36,133 nt of DNA, from assembly GCA_005792635.1 (NCBI GenBank), contig SXRF01000015.1, forward strand, positions 1 through 36,133. Reading direction: 5' to 3'. The position numbers and the translations under genes are program-made. The notes beneath the pieces were generated by a model. It did no database searches, was not told the origin of the DNA, and saw only the letters and a list, made by a program, of their open reading frames with translations. Below, piece after piece: positions 19,272 to 34,307 of the stretch. Source of the stretch: Rickettsiales bacterium. GTDB taxonomy: Bacteria > Pseudomonadota > Alphaproteobacteria > Rickettsiales > SXRF01. The stretch's first letter is position 1. Each line of letters opens with the position of its first letter.

Positions 19272-19544
19272 ATGTTTGAATGGGACGAAAAAAAGCGTAA
19301 AAGCAATTTTACCAAGCATCAAATTGACTTTGATGAGGTGTGGGAACTTGATTGGGAACATGCTATCCGCACCCCATCTGGTAATTTTGAATATGGAGAA
19401 ATTCGCTTTGTTGCTCTTGGTAAAATCGAGGGTAGGCTACATGCCTGCGTTTATACGCCTCGTGGCAATAATTATAGAATTATCAGTTTGCGCAAGGCGA
19501 ATAAAAGAGAGGAAAAGATTTATGAGCAAAAAACTGACGAATAA
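19272..19544 (+). CDS. brnT: BrnT family RNase toxin
   Basis: A 90-aa toxin of a type II toxin-antitoxin pair; BrnT toxins fold like RelE and cut mRNA. Family features appear in order: FEWDEKKRKSNFTKHQIDFDEV at the N-terminus, then GEIRFVALGKIEGRLHACVYTPRG, and RIISLRKANKREEKIYE at the C-terminus. The usual KHGI reads KHQI here. The ATG is set by the FEWD start and lies at the predicted transcription start, so the message looks leaderless. The antitoxin gene overlaps its last 23 bp. The pair separates lspA from the DUF3035 gene and reads against them. Confidence 0.92.
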   Translation: MFEWDEKKRKSNFTKHQIDFDEVWELDWEHAIRTPSGNFEYGEIRFVALGKIEGRLHACVYTPRGNNYRIISLRKANKREEKIYEQKTDE

Positions 19545-19785
19545 AAGCGGAGAAGCAATTGGGTTAACCGATGCCGTTTTAGCGGACATGCTTCCTATGA
19601 AAGATCTGGATAACGATTTTATTGTGCGTTTTAAGAAGGCGAAGCGTGGGCGACCAGTCGGAAGAAAAAAAGCAGTTGTTAGTATAAGTATAGACAGCGA
19701 TTTGTTGGATTTACTACGCGAAGGAGGTAGCGGTTGGCAATCACGCGTAAATTCACTGTTGCGTGCTGCTGTTGGGCTTTGCTGA
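19522..19785 (+). CDS. brnA: BrnA family antitoxin
   Basis: An 87-aa DNA-binding antitoxin that neutralises BrnT and represses the operon. The C-terminal ribbon-helix-helix region shows the family pattern RGRPVGRKKAVVSISIDSDLLDLLREGGSGWQSRVNSLLR (positions 42-81), with the GWQ(S/T)R(V/I)N core. The ATG at 19522 has an AGAGG site in the brnT coding end. A longer reading of this frame from 19276 would run over brnT out of phase and is not real. The 3' end overlaps the convergent lspA by 33 bp. Confidence 0.92.
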   Translation: MSKKLTNKSGEAIGLTDAVLADMLPMKDLDNDFIVRFKKAKRGRPVGRKKAVVSISIDSDLLDLLREGGSGWQSRVNSLLRAAVGLC

Positions 19786-20271
19786 TTGCCTGTCCTCGAA
19801 AAACAGACTATGAACACATAAAACTACAACCCCTATAAAGACAAAAGAATCAGCGAGATTAAACGCTGGCCAGTGCAATTCTCCTAGGTGAAAATCAAGA
19901 AAATCCACCACCGCGCCATAACGAATTCGGTCAACAACATTGCCCGCCGCGCCACCAACCACCAGCCCTATCCCTGTCGTCACCATAACCGACTTACTAC
20001 GCCATAGCCACACCAGCAAAACAGAAATGATAATCAGCGCGAATATAATAAGCAGGAGCGGTTGATTATACCCAGCGAACATCCCAAAACTTACACCGCG
20101 ATTAAACACTAAAACCAGATTAAAAAACGATGTAATTTCTATTGTCGTATAACCAGATAACAACGGATTTCCTAGCACTTCCGCTTTGCTCCACTGGTCA
20201 AGCGCAAAGGTGGCGACGACGAGAAATACAGCTACTATTTTGTTGATTTTCTTACACTCCACACTCCACAC
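19753..20271 (-). CDS. lspA: Lipoprotein signal peptidase (signal peptidase II)
   Basis: Inner-membrane aspartyl protease that cleaves prolipoproteins. In 172 aa with four membrane helices it has the early DQWSK motif (residues 25-29), NRGVSFGMF, and the catalytic aspartates Asp114 in GGAAGNVVDR and Asp141 in FNLADS. No ATG fits. The start is a GTG at 20271, or possibly the GTG at 20262, and both lie inside a heptamer repeat that also supplies the purine-rich upstream sequence, so the first residues (MWSVEC) are repeat-encoded. In most relatives ileS lies between ribF and lspA; here ribF ends 22 bp upstream. The 3' end overlaps brnA on the other strand. Confidence 0.95.
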   Translation of the reverse strand: MWSVECKKINKIVAVFLVVATFALDQWSKAEVLGNPLLSGYTTIEITSFFNLVLVFNRGVSFGMFAGYNQPLLLIIFALIIISVLLVWLWRSKSVMVTTGIGLVVGGAAGNVVDRIRYGAVVDFLDFHLGELHWPAFNLADSFVFIGVVVLCVHSLFFEDRQSAKPNSSTQQ

Positions 20272-20315
20272 TCCACACTCTAAATTCTAAACTCTAAACT
20301 CTAAACTCGAAACTC
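20253..20315 (-). repeat. Nine-unit heptamer array spanning the ribF stop and lspA start
   Basis: Nine consecutive 7-nt units. On the minus strand, 5' to 3': GAGTTTC, GAGTTTA three times, GAATTTA, GAGTGTG three times, GAGTGTA. The array encodes the last residues of ribF, its TAG stop (20294-20296), the whole 22-bp gap and the first codons of lspA. Because 7 is not a multiple of 3, the TAG in the first unit type and the GTG in the second occur in every frame across neighbouring units, while GGAG-like purines precede each GTG. The array therefore works as a frame-independent stop/ribosome-binding/start cassette. Confidence 0.92.
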
Positions 20316-21253
20316 AATATTTTCTTTGCCGCAACGCAATCAATATCTATCTGTGTTTTTAGCTCGTCTAGCGCGGAAAATTTTTGTTCATCTCGAATAA
20401 AATCCACAAATTCAACGCACAGCCTTTTACCATATAGATTTTCGTTTGTATCAAACAAATGCACCTCCAGATTTGGCGCATAGTTTCCAAAAGTTGGCTT
20501 CACACCAAGATTGGCAACCGCATTGTAAATTTTATTTTCTAACTGCACTCGCGTCGCATATACTCCGTATTTGGGTAAAAATAATTTTCTACCAAGCGAT
20601 ATATTGGCAGTGGGAAATCCTAGTTGCGACCCGCGTTTTTCGCCGTGTTGCACTCGCCCGCTAATATGATATGACCTGCCCAGCAAGGACGAAGCCTCCC
20701 TTACCTTTCCATGCGCCAGTAAATCACGGATAAGGCTAGAAGAAATCACCGCCCCATCATTAGCGTAAATTTGTGAGTGCGCCGTATAGCCAAATCCTAG
20801 CTCGCCTGCGAATTTTGCTAGTAAATTTTTATCCCCACTCCTATTTTTTCCGAAGCAAAAATTCTCGCCTGTGATTACATGTTTTGCCGATAGCTTTTTC
20901 ACTAGCACCTCGCGGATAAATTCTTCCGCACCAAGTCCTGCAAATTTTTCATTAAAACGCATTAGAAAAACACACTCCACACCAAGTTCGCCAGCGACTA
21001 GAAGCTTGCTGCGTAAGCTATAAATCCGCATGTTTTTGTATGGTTCTTTACTAAGTAAATTCCCCAAAAACTCCTTAGGGTGTGGCTCAAATGACATCAG
21101 CGCAAGGGGGCGTTTCTCAGCCTTCGCAACAGTTGCGGCGTGAGCAATAATCGCCCGATGCCCAAGATGAAATCCATCAAAATTACCCAGCACAATAACC
21201 GCGCCTTTATAGCTTTTATCTATGGTTTCAATATCTCGAATAATTTTCACCAA
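20294..21253 (-). CDS. ribF: Bifunctional riboflavin kinase / FAD synthetase
   Basis: Makes FMN from riboflavin and then FAD. The 319-aa length is typical. The N-terminal nucleotidyltransferase domain has VLGNFDGFHLGHRAII (residues 21-36, with HLGH) and the later ISSSLIRDLLAHGKVREASSLLGR. The C-terminal flavokinase domain has HGEKRGSQLGFPTANI and VHLFDTNENLYGKRLCVEFVDFIRDEQKF. The last residues (EFRV) and the stop lie in the heptamer array shared with lspA. A palindromic element starts 16 bp upstream of the ATG at 21253, so the promoter is unclear. Confidence 0.96.
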   Translation of the reverse strand: MVKIIRDIETIDKSYKGAVIVLGNFDGFHLGHRAIIAHAATVAKAEKRPLALMSFEPHPKEFLGNLLSKEPYKNMRIYSLRSKLLVAGELGVECVFLMRFNEKFAGLGAEEFIREVLVKKLSAKHVITGENFCFGKNRSGDKNLLAKFAGELGFGYTAHSQIYANDGAVISSSLIRDLLAHGKVREASSLLGRSYHISGRVQHGEKRGSQLGFPTANISLGRKLFLPKYGVYATRVQLENKIYNAVANLGVKPTFGNYAPNLEVHLFDTNENLYGKRLCVEFVDFIRDEQKFSALDELKTQIDIDCVAAKKILSFEFRV

Positions 21254-29768: not shown

Positions 29769-29776
29769 TGTTTCCT

Positions 29777-29824
29777 CGTAATTCGTAGTCCGTAGTTAGT
29801 AGTCCGTAATTAATACGAACTACG
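29777..29824. repeat. Heptamer repeat between pyrH and frr
   Basis: Seven units of about 7 nt on the plus strand: CGTAATT, CGTAGTC, CGTAGTT, AGTAGTC, CGTAATT, AATACGA, ACTACG. The last two are inverted versions, giving a partial dyad (CGTAGTT with AACTACG). It fills the gap between the pyrH stop (29820-29822, itself in the repeat) and the frr ribosome-binding site. Confidence 0.85.
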
Positions 29825-30590
29825 CATCTGCAATTAAAGTAAATTTCCCCTTGCCGCAGACCGCTTCCGCCAGTCCGCCTGCTTCATGGATAGAGAAAAC
29901 CATAATAGGTATTTGGTTTTCCCGCGCCAGCGAAATCGCCGATTGATCCATAACCTGTAAATCTTTCACCAGCACTTCATGATAGGTAAGCCGATCAAAA
30001 TGCTTGGCTTTTTTGTCTTTGCGCGGATCGGCGGAATAAACGCCGTCCACCTGCGTGCCTTTCATCAGCAAATCGCAACCCATTTCATTAGCGCGAAGGG
30101 CGGCCGCAGTGTCCGTGGTGAAGTACGGATTACCCGTTCCCGCTGCGAAAATCACCACGCGCCCGCGCTGGATATGGCGTTCCGCACGACGGCGGATATA
30201 TGGTTCGCAAACCTGCATCATGTTAATCGCTGAAAGCACGCGGGTATCAACGCCCATGCGCTCAAGAGTATTTTGAATCGCCAGCGCGTTAAGAACAGTC
30301 GCCAGCATCCCCATATAATCGGCACTGGCGCGTTCCATGCCATTTGCTGCCCCCTGAATGCCGCGAAATATATTGCCGCCACCAACGACAAGGCAAACTT
30401 CAACGCCCATTTCCATGGTTTGTTTTATATCGCGGGAAATGCGCTCAATTACCTTTGGGTCTTGCCCATAGCCCATATCGCCCATCAAAGCTTCGCCAGA
30501 AATTTTGAGAAGAACGCGCTTGAACAGCGGCTTTGCCGATGGTTTAGCCGATGTTTTTGCAGGGATTAATTTTTTTGCTGTTTTGGTCAT
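29820..30590 (-). CDS. pyrH: UMP kinase
   Basis: Hexameric amino-acid-kinase-fold enzyme that phosphorylates UMP. The body is canonical: [23 protein letters not shown], the UMP-binding [36 protein letters not shown] and [14 protein letters not shown]. At 256 aa it carries an extra Lys/Ala/Pro-rich N-terminus of about 22 residues ([16 protein letters not shown]) that most homologues lack; no inner start codon suits the usual beginning. rpsB and tsf, normally upstream, are absent; tRNA-Arg is the upstream neighbour. The stop lies in a heptamer repeat. Confidence 0.97.
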
Positions 30591-34247: not shown

Positions 34248-34307
34248 GGTCATGAGTCATGGGTCATGAGTTCAACTCCCATGACCCATGACCGAATACC
34301 TATGACC
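34248..34307. repeat. Heptamer-based inverted repeat between maeB and aceB
   Basis: Left units GGTCATG, AGTCATG, GGTCATG; right units CCATGAC, CCATGAC, CGAATAC, CTATGAC. A perfect 13-bp stem forms between 34256-34268 and 34280-34292 (GTCATGGGTCATG) around an 11-nt loop. It starts 2 bp downstream of the maeB stop in the direction of transcription and lies before the aceB leader. There is no T-run, so it is not a standard terminator. Confidence 0.9.

Follow-up and report, generated by a model that had tools for sequence, protein, structure and literature searches.

Organization of the ribF–lspA joint

The window analysed here, meaning the whole stretch of DNA under study, comprises 36,133 nt of contig SXRF01000015.1 from Rickettsiales bacterium (SXRF01), assembly GCA_005792635.1, a genome referred to as G000 below. 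In this window, ribF, which encodes a bifunctional riboflavin kinase/FAD synthetase, and lspA, which encodes signal peptidase II, meet at a tandem array of heptamers (Table 1). An earlier note on this DNA had described nine 7-mers running through the end of ribF and into lspA, with a change of unit type falling between the two genes and with stops and starts recurring in all frames, and these features were confirmed. Read along the minus strand from 20315 to 20253, the contiguous units are GAGTTTC, GAGTTTA (three times), GAATTTA, GAGTGTG (three times) and GAGTGTA; the switch from the first type to the second, at 20281/20280, separates the RibF stop from the LspA start, and every reading frame contains a TAG within the first block and a GTG within the second. 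No other stretch of the window reached 22 of 28 self-matches at distance 7. The RibF stop itself is the TAG at 20296-20294, which lies within units 3-4.

The array was also confirmed to supply lspA with an SD-like GGAG and with the sole usual start codons within its reach. Upstream, the LspA frame is closed by a TAG at 20289, after which come a GTG at 20271-20269, where the mechanically called ORF begins, and a second GTG at 20262; no in-frame ATG, GTG or TTG was found between the array and the first LspA membrane helix. Initiation at GTG 20262 would leave 23 residues up to the Q of LDQ, a distance equal to that in two genomes of the same genus, G001 and G003 (counted by eye). This congener-like N-terminus, together with the GGAG located 8 nt upstream, led us to prefer GTG 20262 over GTG 20271, and LspA translation probably starts there. 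The GGAG remains a weak candidate for a Shine-Dalgarno sequence, given that such sequences were seen at 3–12 nt in only 6 of 24 window ORFs, a hand-picked set with mostly ATG starts that is uninformative on start-codon use. Since ribF also lacks an ATG ahead of its conserved core, non-ATG starts appear to be used in this operon. RNA folding at the joint did not exceed that of shuffled sequences (z 0.42), and a regulatory role of the joint therefore receives no structural backing. On the other side of lspA, two small adjoining ORFs matched a BrnT toxin and a BrnA antitoxin above Pfam cut-offs, a type II toxin-antitoxin pair.

Table 1. Coordinates of the features considered in the window
Feature	Position	Strand	Remarks
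BrnT toxin and BrnA antitoxin	19272-19785	plus	two small ORFs
lspA (signal peptidase II)	19753..20262	minus	TIGR00077 (NCBIfam) above cut-off; preferred GTG 20262-20260, in unit 8
Nine-unit heptamer array	20253..20315	minus	five GAGTTTA-type units (20315-20281), then four GAGTGTG-type units (20280-20253)
GGAG, candidate Shine-Dalgarno sequence	20271..20274	minus	unit 6/7 border
ribF (riboflavin kinase/FAD synthetase)	20294..21253	minus	TIGR00083 and NF004160 (NCBIfam) above cut-off
Third heptamer element, CGTAGTT/ACTACGG type	29774..29825	minus	end extends to the GAGG ahead of the next gene's ATG
Second heptamer element, GTCATGG-type hairpin	34248..34307	minus	four units and inverted units separated by a loop; lies between two minus-strand genes

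The joint in related genomes

The ileS gene sits between ribF and lspA in many other bacteria. On this ground the earlier note had taken ileS to be missing and had proposed that the array may mark the scar of its deletion between ribF and lspA. The gene is not missing from the genome: a search for it elsewhere found ileS intact on contig C105 of G000 (844.8 bits over its joined stretches), and it was likewise present elsewhere in G001, G002, G003 and G005. Moreover, lspA directly follows ribF, without ileS, in 14 of the 15 other genomes of the family; in the fifteenth, G002, the contig ends 219 bp past ribF and these bases do not contain lspA. A deletion scar is contradicted by both observations, and we regard this explanation as almost certainly wrong.

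In G001 and G003, ribF and lspA overlap by ATGA without any array, and the ATG of this overlap is absent in G000, which suggests that the array occupies the former stop/start overlap and supplies both signals. No period-7 array was found after ribF in the 15 other family genomes, where the top score was 12 of 21 self-matches, compared with 20 in G000.

A genome-wide family of four-unit arrays

Arrays related to that of the window occur throughout the genome, and many of them lie in frame inside proteins. Three consecutive GAGTNNN units matched the G000 genome 43 + 57 times, versus 5 + 4 times for the reversed control pattern. With the narrower word GAGTNTN, 36 elements were delimited: 13 opposed pairs (62–86 bp, with 6–30 nt spacers), 22 single blocks of 28 bp and the one-directional nine of the window. 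Most are not palindromic. The consensus over 196 units is G A G T n T n, with GG at most. Among the 48 GAGTNTN arrays counted, 44 have four units, two have three, one has five and one, at the ribF–lspA joint, has nine and is the only one with more than five. This count demands exact units at both ends and omits array L033; the two arrays scored as three units possess a fourth with one mismatch.

Elements located inside open frames of at least 100 codons, in either orientation and mostly in housekeeping genes, accounted for 29 of the 36. By family match, their hosts include MurB, 2-oxoglutarate dehydrogenase E1 (partial), GatA, two E2 acyltransferases, UbiD, MtaB, D-Ala ligase, a YggS-like protein, PurL, PriA and CarB (two arrays each), a SpoU methylase, a pseudouridine synthase, PheT, NuoG, ValS, CoaBC, SerB and, at their N-termini, NuoC- and NuoB-like proteins. 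No family was matched by the ORFs at L017 and L032.

These counts bear on the suggestion of the earlier note that gain or loss of units could act as a switch. The joint would then be a contingency locus, in which slipped-strand events of 7 bp alter the RibF and LspA ends as well as the efficiency of LspA initiation. Stops and starts available in all three frames and the exceptional length of this array, the longest of the 48, are in line with such a role. However, 44 of the 48 arrays have exactly four units, which is not the spread to be expected from slippage (one genome was available per species), and both lspA and ribF are housekeeping genes. Slippage, and hence switching, is disfavoured by this near-fixed block size, and we consider a contingency locus quite improbable.

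Triples of GAGTNTN were found in three of the 55 related genomes searched, G000 included, the other two being G001 and G005. Outside the family, opposed GAGTNTN pairs extend to many phyla (at least 112 stretches), where unit counts range from 3 to 9 (the pattern needs three).

Heptamer words are diverse within the genus and include GAGTNTN, GGATTCR, GTCATNN, GGTCAGA, GGCATTA, GGGCTTY and more. In 350–400 kb of each genome, regardless of word, period-7 arrays numbered 25 in G000, 13 in G003, eight in G001 and six in G002, the G000 sample coming largely from contigs with known GAGTNTN arrays and the three others being drawn without such a choice. Any other period from 4 to 14 yielded 0–6 arrays in each genome, and codon shuffles yielded none. 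A looser unit rule applied to all words in G000–G003 gave a mode of four to five units; the sharp four-unit rule was shown for GAGTNTN in G000 only. A period of 8 instead of 7 was apparent at L250 (priA slot 1, G001), L372 (priA slot 2, G005) and L409 (G000), the last in a slot that we take to be TrmB-like, and six arrays of the G000 sample had this period.

Two further heptamer elements, with other words, lie in the window itself (Table 1). The ORF start at 34260, within the GTCATGG-type element, might have been another start provided by an array, but this was rejected, an ATG with an SD-like AGAGGA lying downstream (by eye). The CGTAGTT word of the third element also occupies the murD slot in G000.

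Shared slots with changing words

The positions of G000 arrays within genes were compared with the orthologous positions, or slots, of congeners. The threshold for a positive slot was 14 self-matches out of 21 at distance 7, and windows elsewhere in the same ORFs served as controls. Alignment covered 22 of the 36 elements, and a relative was available for 20 of these; the 14 unaligned elements were omitted for want of a long open frame, for a flank below 60 residues or for a short, N-terminal or uncertain ORF. For these 20 in-gene elements, a period-7 array was present at 18 of 59 orthologous slots in G001–G003, versus 12 of 1795 control windows. Judged by eye, the word at these positives was different in 11 cases, the same or a decayed GAGT in five and ambiguous in two. 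At least one positive was obtained at 12 of the 20 slots; the remaining eight (gatA, ubiD, ddl, valS, both carB sites, pheT and the pseudouridine synthase gene) were without an array at this threshold in G001–G003. Slot sharing is thus common but not the rule. The same comparison started from the arrays of G003 and G001, of which 11 were found in frame (seven used, four dropped as repeats of slots already counted), gave 10 positives among 20 orthologous stretches versus 13 among 612 controls, and all 10 words look different from those of the query (by eye). The ileS and ThiC-like slots of G003 were empty in the other congeners, and such empty slots indicate that recent insertion also happens, as at ribF–lspA.

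Individual slots illustrate the change of words. In the YggS-like gene, GAGT units in G000 face GGATTC-type units in all three congeners, in the same columns and without gaps. The purL slot holds GAGT units in G000, a GCCT type in G002 and GGGAACT in G003, and four words were observed in the murD slot (GGTCAGA in G001, CGTAGTT in G000, GGCATTA in G002 and GGGATTC in G003). A DNA-polymerase-I-like gene with a 3'-5' exonuclease domain has paired arrays in all four genomes, with three words; G001 and G002 are alike. Family matches identified MurD and LeuS. In five genomes of other genera, arrays with the same or other words were found in slots chosen as shared; the six slots of this comparison were picked for looking shared, so that it is biased and gives no rate. 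The mtaB slot, which has a heptamer array in G000, is filled in G001 (L221) and G002 (L218) by longer, different in-frame inserts that look palindromic.

The array slots of host proteins are variable loops, and ordinary polymerase slippage followed by selection might account for such a distribution: heptamers would arise locally, and slots would be shared because few loops tolerate about ten extra residues. In its favour, published work reports that heptamers are over-represented among the longer simple repeats of many bacteria and proposes slippage related to the polymerase footprint (PMC4692102, PMC4679880). Local origin is difficult to reconcile, however, with the single consensus of dispersed copies over the 196 units, with opposed pairs of near-fixed size whose arms differ, and with the presence of the same word in opposed pairs across many phyla. 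We therefore consider slippage with selection unlikely, although it is the strongest of the rival explanations.

Array edges and candidate machinery

At 12 of 44 array sides, a hairpin with a stem of at least 5 bp lay no more than 4 nt away, versus 125 of 4071 random points. A separate count of stems of at least 6 bp gave 10 of 48 flanks on the outer side, three of 48 on the inner side and 42 of 1887 controls. In comparison with alignable relatives, 43% of bases matched in the hairpin arm bordering the array and 68% in the far arm. The new arm may have been copied in inverted orientation from native host sequence, and such a copy would hint at foldback or template-switch synthesis; the lower conservation of the array-side arm could also come from the variable edge of the slot itself.

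Searches for two protein families, PF01797 and PF00078, revealed no machinery shared by the array-bearing genomes. A Y1 transposase (PF01797) was found in G000 only, as a single gene (L354, contig C69), and none in G001, G002, G003 or G005, all of which have heptamer arrays. Reverse transcriptase RVT_1 (PF00078) had no match in G000–G003 and one in G005. This distribution rules out either enzyme as a shared engine.

A more far-reaching reading of shared slots and edges can be proposed tentatively, at somewhat less than even likelihood. Fixed slots in the proteins of this bacterial family may be overwritten in place with about four heptamers in words proper to each species, as in the murD and DNA-polymerase-I-like genes, by an undescribed DNA-writing process that would set the length and number of units without setting their sequence and would leave a foldback copy of host DNA at the edge; at ribF–lspA, the stop/start overlap would have been rewritten into a self-sufficient joint.

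Comparison with known repeat systems

The window array was filed as an STRR-type heptamer array and not as a Rickettsia palindromic element (RPE), a REP or a quadruplex repeat. Its family consists of tandem degenerate 7-bp units dispersed genome-wide, as is characteristic of STRR arrays. Published cyanobacterial STRR units, such as CCCCATR, differ from the word GAGTNTN. A close precedent comes from the heptanucleotide STRR arrays of cyanobacteria and the P6b stem-loop of the Nostoc tRNA-Leu intron. In P6b, degenerate heptamers form a hairpin in a functional gene (PMC4476775, PMC3488679), and a given slot can exchange its repeat class for another as a whole motif (PMC4476775). That case concerns one RNA slot and two classes, whereas many in-frame protein slots, many words and a near-fixed block of four units are involved here.

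RPEs are described in a review as short palindromes that insert in frame into genes unrelated to one another (PMC10969869). In-frame insertion is shared by other members of the present family, the ribF–lspA array being at a gene joint. However, RPEs are given there as about 150 bp long with a conserved family peptide, in contrast to blocks of 28 bp or pairs of 62–86 bp; no conserved palindrome of about 150 bp was seen, 22 of the 36 elements being single blocks and the window copy being one-directional. Assignment to REP/RAYT systems or other elements driven by a Y1 transposase is opposed by the restriction of this enzyme to G000 among the five array-bearing genomes searched, and assignment to retrons, DGRs or group II introns by the lack of an RVT_1 match in G000–G003.

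Heptamers of Xanthomonas and Nostoc (GGGAATC and GGGGA(T/C)T) have been linked to G-quadruplexes, and opposed pairs and a preference for four units are described for Xanthomonas (Rehm 2015, PMC4692102). According to that account they are mostly intergenic, in contrast to GAGTNTN, which keeps four units without GGG and lies predominantly in open frames. Quadruplex formation was rejected as the reason for four units here, four tracts of at least three G being absent from GAGTNTN arrays.

The TAACTGA direct repeats of Beggiatoaceae offer a parallel at gene joints: they bring stops in all three frames (MacGregor 2015, PMC4679880), overlap upstream stop codons in 13 cases and sit just before starts (PMC4679880). 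They are described there as having two to six copies and little Shine-Dalgarno character, and related heptamers form repeats rarely, if ever, in the genome concerned (PMC4679880). The ribF–lspA array differs from this description in also containing the start codon and a GGAG, and many other words are repeated in the present genomes. Since a post-transcriptional regulator was proposed, in the same study, for TAACTGA repeats just before start codons (PMC4679880), the heptamers might be bound in sets of four by a regulator acting on translation or on DNA, which would fit their fixed count. Neither the placement of 29 of 36 elements inside open frames, in either orientation, nor the change of word between species at one slot is expected of such sites, and this explanation appears very unlikely.

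In the open-licence literature searched, no title or abstract was found on species-specific heptamer replacement at protein slots. What did not appear there is the joint occurrence of numerous slots in proteins, blocks of near-fixed size and words specific to each species.

Proposed origin and significance

Taken together, the array likely belongs to a dispersed STRR-like family, with a basic unit in this genome of four heptamers occurring alone or as an opposed pair, and it landed at the ATGA overlap and was tolerated by virtue of its own stops, GGAG and GTG. According to this preferred account, the array would have arrived, written or inserted, exactly at the ribF–lspA overlap in this lineage, removing the old stop and start. 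It would have been tolerated because its words hold TAG, GGAG and GTG in every frame, with RibF now ending at TAG 20296 and LspA probably starting at GTG 20262. Equivalent arrays elsewhere in the genome sit in frame in variable loops of housekeeping proteins, which would act as permissive slots. Arrays may be created by foldback or template-switch DNA synthesis, and we infer that they are selfish or neutral. With its nine units in one direction, the window array is atypical and its origin may differ from that of the four-unit elements.

Heptamers are reported to be in excess in bacterial genomes, with polymerase slippage as the proposed cause (PMC4692102, PMC4679880). A genus whose species carry near-fixed blocks at shared protein slots, each with its own words, renders the question testable, since array sizes and edges should differ according to whether slippage, selection or mobile copying is at work. 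The four-unit blocks of GAGTNTN also count against quadruplexes as a general explanation of the number four. The ribF–lspA array indicates that the joint of two housekeeping genes can be rewritten when the incoming repeat brings a stop, a ribosome site and a start in every frame.
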